64,000 nucleotides of DNA, from positions 62,001-126,000 of the forward strand of contig JAJECP010000032.1 in assembly GCA_022821985.1 (NCBI GenBank). Reading direction: 5' to 3'. The notes under the pieces are model-generated. The model did no database searches. It was not told the origin of the DNA and worked only from the letters and a program-made list of their open reading frames with translations. This document shows positions 9,704 through 60,150 of the stretch, in pieces. Positions within the stretch are counted from its first letter, which is position 1, and each line of letters opens with the position of its first letter. The stretch comes from Acidimicrobiia bacterium. GTDB taxonomy: Bacteria > Actinomycetota > Acidimicrobiia > Acidimicrobiales > Poriferisodalaceae. The position numbers and the translations under genes were made by a program.

Positions 9704-10687
9704 CTACTGCTTCGCTCCTGCGGTGTCGGCGAACGTCGCCGGTTCCGGCTCGGCCTCGCGCTGTCGCCGGCCTGTCCCTGCCTCGAAGTCGGTGACGTCG
9801 CGCAGCGCCTCGATGGCCTCCTGCTCGGCAGACGACAGCTTCGTCGGCACCCCGATGTCGACGCTCACCAGCAGATCGCCGGTGCCGCGGCGGGTGGTGA
9901 CGCCTCGATCGCGCACCCGGAAGGTCTTGCCCGACGGGGTGCCTGGCGGGATACGCAGCGTCACCGAGTTCCCGTCGAAATCCAGCACCCTGACATCGGC
10001 CCCGAAGACGGCCTCGGGAAAGGTGATCGGGACGCTGACGGTGAGGTTGCGACCGTCACGGCCGAAGTCGGCATCGGGTGCCACGTCCACCAGCACGAAC
10101 AGGTCGCCGTTGGGTCCTCCGCCCGAGCCGGGCGAGCCCTTGCCCGCAAGCCTGATCCGCCCGCCGTCGTCAACTCCGGCGGGAATGCGCACCTTCACGA
10201 TGCGCATGCCGCCTCCGGACGGGTCCGGAACGCTGACCTCGGTCACCGCACCTTCCACGGCGTCGCGAAACGAGATGCCGAGCCGGGTCTCGAGATCGTG
10301 ACCGCGCATCGGCATGGGCCCGCCACGGCCGGCCCGCCCGCGGCCGTCGCCGAAGAGGTTGCCGAAGATGCCGCCCAGGTCGCCCAGATCCTCGATGCGG
10401 ATGCTGAAGCCGCCCGGCCCCGACGCAAACCCCCCCATCTGGGGGCCGAAGCCGACGGGCCCCAGACGGCGCGCCTCGTCATACGCCGCGCGCTTTTCGG
10501 AGTCGCCGATGACGTCGTACGCCGCAGAGATCTGCTTGAAGCGTTCCTCGTCGCCGGCGCTCGAATCTGGATGGTGCTTGCGCGCGAGCTTCCGGTACGC
10601 CTTGGTGATGTCCTTGTCCGACGCATCGGGCGAGACACCCAAGGCCGCGTAGTAGTCGTTCTCGAACCACTCGCGTCGTGGGTCCAT
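9704..10687 (-). CDS. dnaJ: DnaJ-family co-chaperone without zinc finger
   Basis: DnaJ delivers substrates to DnaK and stimulates its ATPase. The 327-residue protein has a J domain (about 9-74, with the HPD triad in KHHPDSS), a glycine/phenylalanine-rich stretch at about 76-130, and two C-terminal beta domains. The cysteine-rich zinc finger of classical DnaJ is missing and the protein contains no cysteine, so it is built like CbpA/type II J proteins although it occupies the dnaJ position between grpE and hspR. Confidence 0.9.
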
Positions 10688-10696
10688 CGTGGCCCC

Positions 10697-11314
10697 CTAC
10701 CCCGTGCGCACCTTGACCATGGCGGCGCGCAGCACCCGGCCGTCGAAGCGAAAGCCGCTGCGCAGCTCAGCTGTCACCACTTGACGGGCGCCGTCGGCAT
10801 GGGCCAGCGCATCGGCATCGTCTGGCTCCGCGGCGGCCGTAGAGTCTGCATCGGAGGCGTCAGCGTCTTCGTCCGGCGCCGGAGTGGCGGGCGCTTGCTC
10901 GATCGTCACCGCCTCGTGCTGGGTGGGATCGAACGGCTCCCCGACGGCGTCGATGCGTTCGAGCCCCGCTTTGCCCAACGCCACCATGAGCGACTGGCCC
11001 ACGGCGGTCACTTCGCTGTGTCCCTGGGCAACGGCGGCGTCGCACCCGTCGAGCACCGGCAGCAGCGACTCGACCAAGCGGCTGACGCCGGCAGACACCT
11101 GCTGACGCCGCTCCGCTTCGACTCGCTTCCGGTAGTTCTGGAACTCCGCCCGTTGGCGCTGCAGCTGGTCGAGGTAGTCGTCGCGCTCGGCGGTCACGGC
11201 GTCGAGCTGGGCCAGCAGATCAGCCGGCTCAGACCCTGGACCGTCCAGATCCGCTGGGCTCTCGCCGACTGCTTCCGCAGCCGCTGCATCGAGCTCGGTC
11301 TCGGTCTCGCTCAC
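10697..11314 (-). CDS. grpE: Nucleotide exchange factor GrpE
   Basis: GrpE releases ADP from DnaK. The 205-residue protein has an acidic N-terminus, the coiled coil with [19 protein letters not shown], and the C-terminal beta domain ([36 protein letters not shown]). The beta domain is interrupted by an acidic alanine/aspartate insert of about 35 residues ([11 protein letters not shown] and following), longer than in most homologues. Its ATG overlaps the dnaK stop by four bases. Confidence 0.93.
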
Positions 11315-13128
11315 TTCTCCTCGTCCACGATCTCCGCGTCGACGACATCGTCGTCAGAACCGGCGCCATCAGCATCAGTCGCGGTGTTCGCGGCCGCAGA
11401 CTCGTACAGCTTCTGGCTGAACGCGCTGCTGGCCGCAGCGAGCGTCTCGGTGGCCGAGCGGATGGCGTCGAGATCGTCGCTCTCGAGTGCCTCGCTGGCA
11501 GCCGCCAAGGCGGATTCCACAGGCTCCTTGTCGTCGGCGGAGACGCTGTCGCCTTGCTCATCGAGCAGCTTGCGGGTCTGGTACACGAGCGTGTCCGCGT
11601 TGTTGCGGATCTCGGCCTCCTCCCGCCGGCGGGCGTCCTCCGCGGCATGCGCCTCGGCATCGGAGACCATCCTCTCGATCTCCTCGGGCGACATGGCCGA
11701 CTGCCCGGTGATGGTGATCGACTGCTCCTTGCCGGTCGCGCTGTCCTTCGCGGACACGTGGACGATGCCGTTGGCATCGATGTCGAACGCCACCTCGATC
11801 TGCGGGACGCCTCGCGGCGCCGGCGGCAGGCCGACCAGCTGGAACTTGCCCAGTGTCTTGTTGCCGGCCGCCATTTCCCGCTCGCCCTGCAGCACGTGGA
11901 TCTCCACGGAGGGCTGGCCGTCTTCGGCGGTGGTGAACATCTCCGACCGGCGCGTCGGGATCGTGGTGTTGCGATCGATGAGGCGCGTCATCACGCCGCC
12001 CTTGGTCTCGATGCCCAAGCTGAGCGGTGTGACATCCAGCAGCAGCACGTCGGTGACGTCGCCCTTGAGCACCCCGGCCTGGATGGCCGCGCCCACCGAG
12101 ACCACCTCGTCGGGATTCACGCCCTTGTGGGGTTCACGGCCGGTGAGCTCGGTCACCAGCTTCTGCACGGCGGGCATGCGCGTGGAGCCGCCCACCAGGA
12201 TCACGTGATCGATGTCGGACTTCGCGAGGCCCGCATCATTGATGGCCTGCTCGAACGGCGACCGGCAGCGCTTCAGCAGGTCGAACGTCAGCTCCTCGAA
12301 CTTGGACCGGCTCAGCTCGTAGTCGAGGTGGAGGGGGCCGCTGTCGGTTGCCGTGATGAACGGCAGGTTGATCTGGGTGGTTTGCTTGGACGACAGGTCC
12401 TTCTTGGCCTGCTCGGCCGCCTCCCGCAAACGCTGGCAGGCCATTGCGTCGCTGCTCAGGTCGACCCCATGGTCGCCCTTGAACGACGCCACCAGCCACG
12501 CGACCACAGCGGCGTCCCAGTCGTCGCCGCCAAGGTGAGTGTCACCGGCGGTGGACTTCACCTCGAAGACGCCGTCGCCGATCTCGAGCACAGACACGTC
12601 GAACGTGCCGCCGCCGAGGTCGAACACCAGGATCGTCTGGTCCTCGGTTTCCTTGTCGAGGCCGTACGCCAGCGCGGCGGCCGTGGGCTCGTTGATGATG
12701 CGCAGTACGTCGAGGCCGGCGATCTTTCCCGCCTCGGTCGTGGCGGTCCGCTGCGCGTCGTCGAAGTACGCCGGCACGGTGATGACCGCTTCGGTCACCG
12801 TGTCGCCGAGGTACTGCTCGGCGTCGAGCTTCAGCTTCTGCAGCACCCGGGCCGAGATCTCCTGCGGCGTGTAGTTCTTGTCATCGATGGACTTGCCCCA
12901 GGTGGTGCCCATGTGCCGCTTGACCGAGGCAATGGTGCGGTCGGGGTTTGTGACCGCCTGCCGCTTGGCGACCTCGCCGGTCAACACCTCACCATTGCGG
13001 GCAAACGCCACGACCGACGGGGTCGTGCGGTCGCCTTCGGCGTTGGCAATGACGGCGGGCTCGCCGCCCTCCATCGCAGCCACCACCGAGTTCGTGGTTC
13101 CGAGGTCAATTCCGACAGCCTTGGGCAT
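11311..13128 (-). CDS. dnaK: Chaperone DnaK (Hsp70)
   Basis: Central Hsp70 of the cytosol. The 605-residue protein shows the three Hsp70 signatures ([42 protein letters not shown]), the linker leading to [17 protein letters not shown], and a lid that ends in an acidic tail ([14 protein letters not shown]). It is the first gene of the operon, with a good ribosome site (AAGGAAAGG) eight or so bases before the ATG and an HspR-like operator over its promoter. Confidence 0.97.
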
Positions 13129-37843: not shown

Positions 37844-38914
37844 TCAGAGGCGGGACGGCTCGCACTGACGCTCGCCGGGGTAGAACTGTGCGCAGTACTC
37901 CCGGTACTTCCCAATTTCGCCGTCGGTGCGAACGAGCCGCGGGCGTGGCACATAGTGCTTGCGACTCCAGATGACGACGTCCTGTTGAACATCCCGGATC
38001 TGCAGATCCGCAATGAACTTGTTCACGATGGGTGCCCGCATCCGTGTCGGCAAGAAGCGCAGGCCGGCGATCGGTCGCTCGGGTTTGTGCAGTGTGCGCA
38101 TCCGCGAGACGATGGACAGGTCAATGAGCGTGCCGTCGACAGGCGTTGCCAACACCCACAGCCGGGCATCGATGCCAATCGAGTGCTCCTGGAATTCGAC
38201 AAACGAGTAGCCCAGCCCGACTACGTGGGCGATAGCCGACACGTCCATGGTCAGCTTGGCGAGCTTGGCAATCTTCCGGGTTGTCGAGAAGCCGAACCGG
38301 CTCTCGAGTCGTGGTCCGTCGATCAACACCGGGGTTTCGTGGGTGACGTTGTGGTAGCCGTGGATGTAGCTCAGGTGCGCGATGTCCACCGAATTCTCGC
38401 TGGTTTCCTGCGGATGGCCATCGAAGCGAATCGTCCGGATCTGCAAGTCAGTCCAGTCGTCAACGGATTGAGGAACATCGGGCAGCTGCCACTGCGAGGC
38501 TCGACCGCCGAGGCCCCACCAACCGAAGATGAGGCCTTCGATCTCACGGGCTTCGAAGAGGTCCAGCTTCGCGGAGCGGGCGGGCGCTCCAGATGGCGTG
38601 GCCACGCACTGCCCAGTGATCTCGAACTCGAACCCGTGAAAGGGACAGACAAGTCTCCCGCCGACCACCCTCGCCCCGGCCTCAGGTCCCAGATCGGAGC
38701 CCAGATGAGGGCATACCGATTTCGCGATGCAGATCTGACCGGCCGGATCAGACCAGATGACGATCTCTTCGCCCATCCAGGTACGTTGAATCAATCCCGC
38801 CTTCTGGACTGCGTCGCGCGTCGCGATGAAAAACCAGCCTTCTGGAAATGGCGGAAGCGAACTAACGTTTGCTGCCTGCTGGGGTCTGGCCATCGAGCCG
38901 CGCTCTCCATCCAA
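37844..38914 (-). CDS. Rieske [2Fe-2S] oxygenase, alpha-subunit type
   Basis: A 356-residue oxygenase with the Rieske cluster ligands CPHLGSDL and CPFHGFEF (about Cys68, His70, Cys90, His93) and the mononuclear iron motif ENSVDIAHLSYIHG (Asp177, His180, His185). This is the architecture of KshA-like ring hydroxylases and of the DAF-36/Neverland cholesterol 7-desaturases; the substrate cannot be read from the sequence. An internal ATG eight codons in is an alternative start. It diverges from the P450 gene over a shared 145-base region and lies inside the split jag locus. Reductase and ferredoxin genes are not adjacent. Confidence 0.88.
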   Translation of the reverse strand: MDGERGSMARPQQAANVSSLPPFPEGWFFIATRDAVQKAGLIQRTWMGEEIVIWSDPAGQICIAKSVCPHLGSDLGPEAGARVVGGRLVCPFHGFEFEITGQCVATPSGAPARSAKLDLFEAREIEGLIFGWWGLGGRASQWQLPDVPQSVDDWTDLQIRTIRFDGHPQETSENSVDIAHLSYIHGYHNVTHETPVLIDGPRLESRFGFSTTRKIAKLAKLTMDVSAIAHVVGLGYSFVEFQEHSIGIDARLWVLATPVDGTLIDLSIVSRMRTLHKPERPIAGLRFLPTRMRAPIVNKFIADLQIRDVQQDVVIWSRKHYVPRPRLVRTDGEIGKYREYCAQFYPGERQCEPSRL

Positions 38915-39059: not shown

Positions 39060-41102
39060 TTGACTATTGCATCGACAGCCTCGACGAAGGTCACTGCTGC
39101 GCAGCCGCTCGACCTGACCGAGGAACTCATCTTGGTGCTGCTCAGCGAAGAGAGCGGGTACTTCCACCAGGTTCCCGGCTGGCATTTGAATTGCGCCATG
39201 GCCGGTGCGGCGCTGGCCGAGCTCTCGCTGCAGGCGCGCATTGACACCGACATGGAGTCGCTGATCCTGCTGGACAAGACGCCGACGGGCAAGCCGATCC
39301 TGGACCTCGCCCTCCAGCAGATCGCGAGCGAGCCCGATCAGCGCAGCGCCCAGTACTGGGTGGAGCGCCTCGCGCCTCGCGCCGAGATGATGCTCGACTT
39401 GGCACTGGAACAACTGGTCAGACTCGGGATCCTCGAGCATCACGACGGCGAATTCTGGAGCTTGACGGCAGCGGCCCGGCACAGCGATTTCTTTGCCGGC
39501 GATGACGACGACACGGCTGCCCAGTTCATCAAGACGCGCATTGGCAGATCGATCCTGCTGGGCGAGATTCCGAGCCCGAGAGACGTCATCATCATCGGTC
39601 TCGCCCACACCTGCGATGTGCTGCGCTTCATCTTCGAGCTCGACGACGAAGCGGAGGAGCGGGTCCAGCTCATCTGCCAGATGGACCTGATCGGCAGGGC
39701 CATCGCGGATGCCGTCGCGCACAACCTGGTGGCGTCGCTGCTCAGAAGCTCTGCGCTGACGAAGTCGGTGCCCAAGCTGCCGCTCAACAAACTGCTGCTC
39801 AATCGCCATTTCCTTCGCGGGAATATCCCGGCTGTCTATGCACAATTGACCGAAGAATTCGGTCCAGTCTTCAGACTCAGCCCCTTGTTCTCCGGGCAGG
39901 AGATCACATTCCTATCCGGCCCCCGCGTCAATCGCTGGGTTCACCGTCACGGTCGCATGCACCTCAGGTCGAGCGATTACCTCCGAGGTCTCGAAACTGC
40001 GTATCACGCCTCCGGGCTGCTGCCTGCGCTGGATGGTGCAGATCATTTCCGCATGCGCAAATCGCTGCGTGCTGGCTACGGCCGCGCGCGATTCGAACAG
40101 CAGCTCGAAACGGTATATCAGCACGCTCGAACATACATCAGCAAGTGGAACGTCGGGGACACATTTGGAGCCGTATCGATGTGTCGCGGCTTCTCCGGCG
40201 CTCAGGTCACGCCGTTTCTCGCGAGCATCGAGGCAGATGATGTCATCGATGACCTCATCGCGTATAAGTCCCGAGTGCTCATGACCCAAGTCGTCAACGT
40301 CTTGCCGAATTTCATGCTCAATACGCCCCGCATGAAGCGCAAGAAGAAGGTTGTCGACGTTCTGTACGAACGCGTGCTGGAATCTCACACGGCCGCGCAG
40401 AGGGCTGGTTGCCCTCGCGACCTTGCCGACGACGTACTCAGCCTGCACACCAGCGATCCGATTTTCGTACCCGAGTCAAATCTGAGCTTTACCTTCTCCG
40501 CACCAGTACTTGCGGGAATGTACGCGGGAGACGAGCTCAGCTTCATCTTGCATGCGATGGTGTCTCAACCGCATTTGTATGAGCAGATCCGAGCAGAGGC
40601 TGACGCCTTGTTCAGCAACGGAGATCCGTCGGCAGATGATTTGAGTTCTCCCGCGATCGATGTCACTCGACGTTTCATCATGGAGTGCTTGCGGCTGTGG
40701 CCCACGGTGCCGATGTCCATCCGCACAGTAATGAACGCATGCGTTGTTGAAGACTACGAATTGCCGGTGGGCTCCAAGGTGTTCATTGCCACTACGGCAC
40801 CGCATTACATGAACGAGATTTTTCCGGATCCGTTCACATTCGACATCGATCGCTACCTGCCTTCACGCGGCGAGCACCGTACACCTGGATACGCGCCGTT
40901 CGGCCTCGGCACGCATAGCTGTCTTGGCTCTCACATGGTGGAGTTGCAGATGCTGCTGAGCCTGTTGATGCTCGCGCACTATTTCACTTTCGAGATTGCG
41001 CCGTCGAACTACAAGCTGAAGATCAGCCCGTTTCCATCAATGTCGCCGAACAAGCGGTTCAAACTCAAAGTCGTGGAGCAGCGGCACCCGTTGACGAGTT
41101 GA
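39060..41102 (+). CDS. GPP34 (GOLPH3/Vps74-like) domain fused to cytochrome P450
   Basis: A 680-residue fusion. Residues 16-225 match the GPP34 family: LTEELILVLLSEESG, DTDMESLILLDKTPTGKPILDLAL, WVERLAPRAEMMLDLALEQLVRLGIL and a helical end (RSILLGEIPSPRDVIIIGLAHTCDVLRFIF). Residues 240-675 are a P450 with the ExxR pair in ECLR (542-545), an I-helix AGMYAGDELS and the heme loop FGLGTHSCLG with Cys621. Eukaryotic GPP34 proteins bind phosphoinositides on membranes; bacterial members are uncharacterised. The start is a TTG six bases after AGGAG. No transmembrane helix is evident. GC looks lower than in flanking genes, suggesting transfer. Confidence 0.88.
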   Translation: MTIASTASTKVTAAQPLDLTEELILVLLSEESGYFHQVPGWHLNCAMAGAALAELSLQARIDTDMESLILLDKTPTGKPILDLALQQIASEPDQRSAQYWVERLAPRAEMMLDLALEQLVRLGILEHHDGEFWSLTAAARHSDFFAGDDDDTAAQFIKTRIGRSILLGEIPSPRDVIIIGLAHTCDVLRFIFELDDEAEERVQLICQMDLIGRAIADAVAHNLVASLLRSSALTKSVPKLPLNKLLLNRHFLRGNIPAVYAQLTEEFGPVFRLSPLFSGQEITFLSGPRVNRWVHRHGRMHLRSSDYLRGLETAYHASGLLPALDGADHFRMRKSLRAGYGRARFEQQLETVYQHARTYISKWNVGDTFGAVSMCRGFSGAQVTPFLASIEADDVIDDLIAYKSRVLMTQVVNVLPNFMLNTPRMKRKKKVVDVLYERVLESHTAAQRAGCPRDLADDVLSLHTSDPIFVPESNLSFTFSAPVLAGMYAGDELSFILHAMVSQPHLYEQIRAEADALFSNGDPSADDLSSPAIDVTRRFIMECLRLWPTVPMSIRTVMNACVVEDYELPVGSKVFIATTAPHYMNEIFPDPFTFDIDRYLPSRGEHRTPGYAPFGLGTHSCLGSHMVELQMLLSLLMLAHYFTFEIAPSNYKLKISPFPSMSPNKRFKLKVVEQRHPLTS

Positions 41103-59112: not shown

Positions 59113-60150
59113 TCAGGGCCGCTTGCGGGCCACGAAGCAGTACAGCGGCGTGAAGATTCCCGTCTTGCCGCCGGCGACGTACGCGTTGGCGGTGCGATCG
59201 AGCAGCTTGGCGACCTCAGCGGTGCCTCGGGGCAGGATCCTCAACGTCTCAACGAAGCGTGCGGCCCCGATCGCGAGTCGTCGACTCAGTGGTGTCCCGC
59301 GCGGGGTGTTACGGGCTGTACCGCTGCGCGCCTCCATCGGCTGATACCACGGCGTCGTCGATCCGTATTCGGCAGTTCCGCGGTCAATGCCTTCGATCAC
59401 CTCGAATCCTGCCGACTCCAGTGCTTGGTTGACTTCGGCGAACGTCGCGATCTTCTTGAGCGCGATCCCGCGCATGAGTTCTCGCTTGATCTCTTGGTGA
59501 TTCGTGTTGTCGGCGTCGAACGTGTCGGTCAGGCACATTTCCTGGCCCCACAGCAGTGCGCCTGGCTTCAGCACGCGCGCGATCTCGGTGAAGGCGCCCA
59601 CCTTGTCCGGTGCGTGACAGGTCGACTCGATCGCGTAGGCCCGGTCGTAGCTGCCGTCTTCGATGGTGCCCATGTCCATGAAGCTGGTTTCCACGTAATC
59701 GATCATGTCGCTGAGGCCTGCTTGGGCGGTCAACTCTCTCGCCCTGGCCAGCTGGACTTCGCTGCTGTTGATGCCGGTGACCGTGACTCCTGCTTCACGG
59801 ACCACGGTCCGCATCGGCGCGCCGATCCCGCACCCGACGTCGATGACCGACATGCCCTCGCGCAAATCCAGCTTGTCGATCATCAGCCGCTGATGCCGGA
59901 GCTTCGAGTCTTCCAGGCTCTCCTGCGGAGACAGCGGTGCGAAGTGGAGCGATTCACCCCAGCCGTAGATCATGAGGTGGCTGCAGATGTCGTAGTACTC
60001 CGTCGCCGTCTCGGCGTGGTCGGAAGTCGGGCCGTCGCTCGGCGCGTACGTCTCGTCGAGCCGCCTGTTCAGCTGCTCCACCCGGTGTCGAAGGTCCGAG
60101 CCGCGGTACGACATCTTCAGTCCGCGTGCGACCTGCCAGATGCTGCTCAC
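59113..60150 (-). CDS. Erg6-like (sterol C-24 methyltransferase type) SAM-dependent methyltransferase
   Basis: A 345-residue class I methyltransferase. It has the SAM motif VIDVGCGIGAPMRTV (about 102-116), the sterol-methyltransferase block YGWGESLHFA (62-71), TGINSSEVQLARARE, the YAIESTCHAPD motif (172-182) and a TTPWYQP motif near the C-terminus, all close to eukaryotic Erg6/SMT. The true substrate could be a sterol, hopanoid, carotenoid or lipid. A GTG at 60150 and an ATG at 60114 are both possible starts. Confidence 0.85.
   Translation of the reverse strand: MSSIWQVARGLKMSYRGSDLRHRVEQLNRRLDETYAPSDGPTSDHAETATEYYDICSHLMIYGWGESLHFAPLSPQESLEDSKLRHQRLMIDKLDLREGMSVIDVGCGIGAPMRTVVREAGVTVTGINSSEVQLARARELTAQAGLSDMIDYVETSFMDMGTIEDGSYDRAYAIESTCHAPDKVGAFTEIARVLKPGALLWGQEMCLTDTFDADNTNHQEIKRELMRGIALKKIATFAEVNQALESAGFEVIEGIDRGTAEYGSTTPWYQPMEARSGTARNTPRGTPLSRRLAIGAARFVETLRILPRGTAEVAKLLDRTANAYVAGGKTGIFTPLYCFVARKRP

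Follow-up and report, generated by a model that had tools for sequence, protein, structure and literature searches.

The fusion gene and its domains

The 64-kb stretch of DNA analysed here (the window) belongs to a 3.31-Mb genome of 41 contigs. On its forward strand, positions 39060..41102 encode a protein of 680 amino acids that initiates at a TTG codon and whose frame contains no internal stop. Residues 19-221 (39114..39722, forward strand) match the GPP34 (GOLPH3-like) domain (Pfam PF05719; E 3.1e-32; 112.7 bits vs. a cut-off of 29.1) and residues 240-671 (39777..41072, forward strand) the cytochrome P450 domain (PF00067; E 3.7e-38; 131.9 bits vs. a cut-off of 22.8), bearing out a sequence-only reading of this locus in which one protein joins the two. 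That reading had also named an ExxR motif at residues 542-545 and a heme cysteine at residue 621, each of which is kept in 81 of 81 proteins, i.e. the window protein and the best 80 of 180 relatives, on which all residue counts below are based. The ExxR motif (E542-R545) lies at 40683..40694 and the heme-binding loop with C621 (residues 614-623) at 40899..40928, both on the forward strand; within the loop, G615, G617, H619, C621 and G623 are invariant (81/81). At a threshold of 1e-5, both Pfam domains were present in 70 of 70 aligned family members. The possibility of two separate genes or a frameshift could be rejected, as the domains share a single open frame in the window gene and in all of the best 80 of 180 relatives.

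The divergently oriented neighbour (37844..38914, reverse strand) encodes a 356-aa Rieske oxygenase with a KshA_C domain (KshA_C 4.1e-25, Rieske 1.1e-14), whose best PDB match is 3-ketosteroid 9alpha-hydroxylase (1.1e-18). A sterol methyltransferase (SMT) gene (PF08498 Sterol_MT_C, 1e-16), with an uncertain start at the ATG at 60114 or slightly upstream, is located 18 kb from the fusion (59113..60114, reverse strand). Genes resembling dnaA, gyrB and gyrA, named by eye, also lie near the window's fusion copy.

The I-helix and the active site

An acid–alcohol pair in the I-helix, AGx(D/E)T(T/S), is typical of monooxygenases, yet not of all P450s, and is absent from the fusion P450 in the 81 proteins. 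The segment aligned to AGx(D/E/H)T (residues 485-491; 40512..40532, forward strand) reads A-S-x-Y-L-G-D across the family. Upon alignment to CYP51, Tyr488 occupied the acid/His column in 81 of 81 proteins, and residue 489, in the column of the catalytic threonine, was Leu in 64, Val in eight, Ala in seven and Ile or Met in one each, but never Thr or Ser. G490 (81/81) and D491 (80/81) follow, after which the profile alignment places a one-residue gap relative to CYP51. In the AlphaFold model used (70 sequences; pLDDT 83.5, pTM 0.70, vs. pLDDT 62.6 for an eight-sequence model), residues 472-502 form an unbroken helix. The I-helix acid–threonine pair is replaced family-wide (81/81) and, judged from sequence, the active site appears unusual for an O2-activating monooxygenase; we infer that it could work with peroxide, rely on help from the substrate or catalyse a redox-neutral reaction.

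Relationship to other P450s

The best PDB profile match of the fusion P450 was Methylococcus capsulatus CYP51 (1.3e-37). In fold searches, with rows covering residues 233-679, CYP46A1 and CYP51 headed the list by structural Z score (34.7 and 34.6, respectively), with BM3 about two units below, and by Foldseek E-value CYP184A1 (with oleic acid) and BM3 came first. The modelled fold alone does not point specifically to sterol P450s. By custom, P450s of the same family share ~40% identity. Because the identity to M. capsulatus CYP51 is 18-21% and the I-helix differs, the fusion P450 is not a CYP51. A further P450 was found near the fusion in five of 83 loci, all in Nitrospirota; as the one copy inspected (locus L067) carries the CYP51-type AGQHTS motif, the fusion probably performs another step.

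The GPP34 domain

Profile searches matched the GPP34 part to GOLPH3 (3kn1, 1.3e-5) and Vps74 (0.0017). We take the residues of GOLPH3 that contact PI4P to be W81, R90, R171 and R174, numbering that we checked on an alignment with PDB 9qpq. W81 corresponds to W41 of the fusion, kept in 80 of 81 proteins, R90 to residue 48, which is Ala, Val or Ile in 79 of 81, and R171 and R174, in a part that aligns weakly, to Glu109 and to residue 112, which is hydrophobic. Near-invariant positions comprise G33, Y34, F35, Q37, R60, D62, D64, R160 and R174 of the fusion (81/81 each), W41 and H36 (78/81). The sequence-only reading had GPP34 tethering the oxidase to a membrane lipid. An oxidase acting at a membrane lipid fits the sterol context described below, but, with so few PI4P contacts in the alignment, a phosphoinositide tether is unsupported. 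By analogy, docking on a membrane or a partner would be the likeliest use of the domain.

Stand-alone GPP34 genes were encountered as well. One (L045:6594-7295, reverse strand) lies on the same strand as, and ~0.9 kb from, hopanoid-like genes recognized by eye (HpnC/D/E-like, polyprenyl synthase, squalene-hopene cyclase). In genome G094, two tandem stand-alone GPP34 domains (L035:4076-7009, forward strand) are situated just past NADH dehydrogenase-like genes, the first of them ending a long spurious frame.

Distribution and transfer of the fusion

Full-length orthologues (57-97% identity) were present in nine of ten same-genus genomes and in G094, a member of another family, among 99 relatives searched. 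In contigs from one genome per species, 192 stretches matched two search patterns, both derived from the GPP34 domain, and 180 of these encode relatives; the best 80 are all GPP34–P450 fusions at 55-97% identity, including eight near-kin records (L046-L053) that overlap the genus set and four genomes that give two loci each. By record title, these 80 represent Actinomycetota, Chloroflexota, Nitrospirota, Gemmatimonadota, Pseudomonadota, Latescibacterota, Binatota, Verrucomicrobiota, Myxococcota and Acidobacteriota, plus records lacking a phylum. All 80 are MAGs, and sponges are presumably the source of most of them besides the 12 whose titles carry 'jk18x'. The latter is the MAG prefix of a Caribbean Ircinia sponge study (PMC9531527).

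A GPP34 match occurred in 22 of 149 Actinomycetota genomes, of which only the window's was seen to have it joined to a P450. The remaining Actinomycetota GPP34 frames were rejected as fusions for insufficient length, and the long frames of L166 and L169 upon visual inspection, as the part ahead of GPP34 looks like an out-of-frame translation.

In a tree of 84 fusion proteins, 21 group-label changes sufficed for 11 groups, 'unassigned' counting as one (minimum 10, shuffled mean 47; 16 changes without unassigned rows): the fusions cluster by phylum, and phyla mix repeatedly. For comparison, the best GyrB match was taken from each of 12 other-phylum genomes that we picked from the 80 loci. Window GyrB was 47-55% identical to these, vs. 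55-60% for the fusion, which was higher in 12 of 12 cases; the gene has therefore moved between phyla. The FAD oxidoreductase of a Dehalococcoidia locus has counterparts of 78-80% identity in eight genus genomes. Spread of the fusion by plasmids was rejected, since none of 311 plasmid records in a tblastn search held 80% of the query in one place.

The fused GPP34 domains (n = 18) form one clade (support 100/100), grouping at moderate support (91/79) with four stand-alone Acidimicrobiia GPP34s, of which the window's genus contributes two. This placement suggests an origin of the fusion near Acidimicrobiia.

A diverged fused paralogue

A second GPP34–P450 fusion, strongly diverged (27-28% identity; both Pfam domains), is carried by at least two members of the genus. 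Its representatives at L034:6469-8475 and L033:5283-7286 (both forward strand) lack the usual I-helix motif, and tblastn with Rieske, SMT, FAD and MMPL queries returned no match in these stretches. The paralogue of genome G010 is directly followed by an ERG4/ERG24 gene, with an SMT 10 kb off; neither neighbour occurs within the stretch seen around that of G004. For a common origin of the paralogue's GPP34, p-AU was 0.275. Separately, L085 holds a tandem second fusion copy (10228-11575, forward strand; 49% identical) that is cut by the contig end.

The sterol-gene neighbourhood

Neighbouring genes were surveyed by tblastn (1e-15) at 83 loci (the window, G094, G003 and the 80 named records) over ~8 kb on each side where the contig allowed. 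Rieske oxygenase genes were found at 60 loci, SMT at 41, FAD oxidoreductase at 40, MMPL transporter at 34 and squalene epoxidase–cyclase at five, the last in Nitrospirota only. At least one sterol-type gene lay within ~8 kb at 77 of the 83 loci, and at least three of the five at 37. None of the tested neighbours was detected at six loci, three of which have a flank cut by a contig end. Representatives displayed the corresponding domains: Sterol_MT_C in four SMTs, KshA_C and Rieske, Sterol-sensing and Patched in MMPL proteins, and squalene epoxidase with both cyclase domains in L067. The Rieske (CxH/CxxH) and iron (NxxDxxH(x4)H) motifs were intact in all 42 single-copy Rieske neighbours of at least 300 aa.

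Pairwise identities of single-copy neighbours of at least 300 aa were correlated with those of the fusion by a Mantel test (Spearman). The coefficient was 0.51 for Rieske (42 loci; reached by 0 of 999 permutations), 0.47 for MMPL (31 loci; 0/999) and 0.45 for SMT (30 loci; 2/999); FAD-enzyme identities did not track those of the fusion (35 loci; 0.16; 90/999). Restricted to different-phylum pairs, the values were 0.37 for Rieske, 0.42 for MMPL, 0.12 for SMT and 0.11 for the FAD enzyme. Together, the fusion is recurrently linked to genes for SMT, KshA-like Rieske oxygenase, FAD oxidoreductase and sterol-sensing MMPL protein.

Two further neighbourhoods deserve mention. In the Nitrospirota locus L067 (12467-15895, reverse strand), squalene epoxidase and squalene/oxidosqualene cyclase are joined in one 1143-aa protein near GPP34–P450, an arrangement of the type seen in MsbE from the Melophlus cluster. 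At L109 (7132-7941, forward strand), and also at L080 and L058, a TPR protein and AcrB/HlyD-type genes occur near SMT or Rieske. These may export sterols in the manner of the Bst proteins; the TPR neighbour tested showed no sequence match to BstC.

Predicted sterol metabolism in the window's genus

Among 11 genus genomes, the window's included, SMT was present in 11, KshA_C Rieske in ten and ERG4/ERG24 in ten (at least three matches each). The FAD enzyme was full-length in eight, in two pieces in one and absent from two. In the window's genome, outside the window (contigs C16, C22 and C27), there are three ERG4/ERG24 matches, two of which are adjacent, as well as an FAD oxidoreductase that shares 78% identity with a Chloroflexota copy. 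A squalene-type cyclase (PF13243) was found in none of the 11 genomes, whose assemblies are 84-98% complete; PF13243 matches were present in G094. Judged by gene content, the window's genus looks able to edit, not make, sterols, and the missing cyclase (0/11) suggests that it probably edits acquired ones.

Proposed function and alternatives

We propose that the fusion is probably an undescribed sterol-modifying enzyme. More specifically, with a probability of about 0.6, it is a predicted peripheral-membrane, sterol-modifying P450 of bacteria that appear to be sponge symbionts. Eukaryotic sterol P450s have an N-terminal membrane anchor. In the fusion, GPP34 would replace such an anchor and, by analogy, attach the enzyme to the surface of the membrane or to its partner enzymes, so that membrane sterol could then enter the heme pocket. 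With no squalene-type cyclase found, the window's genus would take this sterol from host or diet, and the P450 might act on its ring or side chain in the same pathway as the Rieske oxygenase and the methyltransferase. Lacking the proton-relay threonine, it would depart from standard monooxygenation and employ peroxide, activate oxygen with the help of the substrate or catalyse a rearrangement that involves no oxygenation. Speaking for this proposal are the counts and domains of the neighbouring genes, the tracking of the fusion by Rieske, MMPL and SMT identities, the ERG4/ERG24 gene next to the G010 paralogue, the rank of CYP51 by profile and Z score, and the gene content of the genus, in which the one genome without the fusion (G002) has no Rieske gene either. 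Several observations speak against it: the distance of the SMT from the fusion in the window, the lack of an MMPL match in the window's genome at 1e-20, the six loci devoid of tested neighbours, the unspecific fold, the FAD-enzyme identities, the low SMT coefficient for different-phylum pairs, the surroundings of the G004 paralogue, the mostly lost GOLPH3 lipid pocket, and the retention of SMT, FAD enzyme and reductases in G002.

It is a real possibility, if not the favoured one, that the fusion is an ordinary sterol monooxygenase, with a substrate hydroxyl or ordered water replacing the threonine and Tyr488 and Asp491 merely shaping the pocket. Such compensation is found in EryF and in the sterol C22-desaturases CYP61 and CYP710, and both the intact heme cysteine and ExxR motif and the sterol-gene context of the loci would suit it. 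However, more than one position has changed, with Tyr at the acid position and a hydrophobic residue at the Thr position in 81 of 81 proteins, and the gap past D491 is a further departure from CYP51 in the profile alignment.

Somewhat doubtful is the idea that GPP34 serves as a protein–protein adaptor, joining the Rieske oxygenase, SMT or transporter in the way GOLPH3 engages enzyme tails, and not as a lipid binder. A largely lost PI4P pocket, the near-invariant GPP34 residues (G33 to Q37, W41, R60, D62, D64, R160 and R174) and the tracking of the fusion by Rieske and MMPL identities agree with an adaptor, yet for each of SMT, FAD enzyme and MMPL, at least half of the 83 loci have no copy nearby.

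A bolder extension of the sterol reading, which we regard as unlikely, is that this P450, devoid of the oxygen-activation pair and anchored to the membrane through its Golgi-type domain, rearranges host sterol in a non-oxygenating or peroxide-driven manner. Exchanged between symbionts of ten or more phyla, it would thereby make some of the unusual sterols credited to sponges. If true, GPP34 would serve to present sterol or membrane to the enzyme, a role new to this fold.

Quite improbable is a P450 acting on another isoprenoid (hopanoid, carotenoid or sponge terpene) or a fatty acid, with the sterol clusters reflecting shared transfer only: CYP184A1 with oleic acid and BM3 do head the Foldseek rows, and G073 has a stand-alone GPP34 relative close to genes that look hopanoid-like by eye, but in many phyla the fusion is linked to genes for an SMT, a KshA-like Rieske protein and a sterol-sensing transporter, the G010 paralogue is linked to ERG4/ERG24 and CYP51 is the nearest profile. 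Finally, a binning artefact, whereby contigs of one organism are scattered over many sponge-metagenome bins, is hardly credible even with every named record being a MAG, as the copies are not one sequence (those from other phyla are 55-60% identical to the window's), several of them sit in 2.5-4.2 Mb records labelled Binatia, Longimicrobiales or Dehalococcoidia, and the window copy neighbours the dnaA- and gyrase-like genes.

Assuming the sterol-modifying reading, the fused P450 seems to have been overlooked as a widely exchanged component of symbiont sterol machinery. Its presence in bacteria seemingly unable to make sterols de novo suggests that symbionts edit host or dietary sterol, which touches on the question of who makes the odd sterols of sponges, including precursors of the 24-isopropylcholestane biomarker. 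The fusion would also place bacterial GPP34 domains in a defined enzymatic context, and it provides a natural family of P450s whose I-helix motif is replaced.

Comparison with known systems

The claim of the sequence-only reading that no such system had been described holds for the open-access PMC literature searched, in which we found no GPP34–P450 fusion; 'GPP34' is absent from the main texts of PMC9531527 and PMC10070321. According to portions of the latter, SMTs of symbiotic bacteria make 24-isopropyl side chains in vitro.

Closest in setting are the symbiont sterol gene clusters (CSGs) of Ircinia sponges, for which horizontal transfer is reported in sections of PMC9531527. As far as these sections describe them, CSGs share with the fusion loci the same kind of hosts, overlapping phyla and SMT, CYP51, ERG24 and cyclase genes, and at five Nitrospirota loci GPP34–P450 is accompanied by a squalene epoxidase–cyclase and another P450; the genus genomes resemble CSGs in possessing SMT (11/11) and ERG4/ERG24 (10/11). 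In contrast to the ERG24–CYP51–LSS core of CSGs, 78 of the 83 fusion loci, the window's included, have no nearby cyclase match. The msb cluster of a Melophlus sponge symbiont likewise combines genes for a fused epoxidase–cyclase, Rieske, lanosterol-demethylase-type, reductase and SMT proteins, but GPP34–P450 is not mentioned in excerpts of its description (PMC7074536). The sterol transporters BstA/B/C, as outlined in excerpts of PMC10942540, offer a parallel to the RND-type transporter and, at some loci, the TPR protein that accompany the sterol genes here, differing in that the tested TPR protein has no sequence match to BstC.

Bacterial GPP34s such as SCO4440 (PMC12402492) belong to the same family and stand alone, whereas that of the fusion is joined to an enzyme; according to parts of that paper, a bacterial GOLPH3-like protein affects the cell wall. 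Compared with GOLPH3 and Vps74, the fused domain keeps one of four PI4P-contact residues, two of the lost three being weakly aligned. As for the P450, CYP51 is a top-tier match by profile and fold, from which the fusion differs by carrying A-S-x-Y-L-G-D in place of a GQHTS-type I-helix. CYP51 of M. capsulatus, which is fused to a ferredoxin, is likewise a bacterial sterol-pathway P450 that bears an additional domain; in the GPP34–P450 protein, the additional domain is an N-terminal GPP34.
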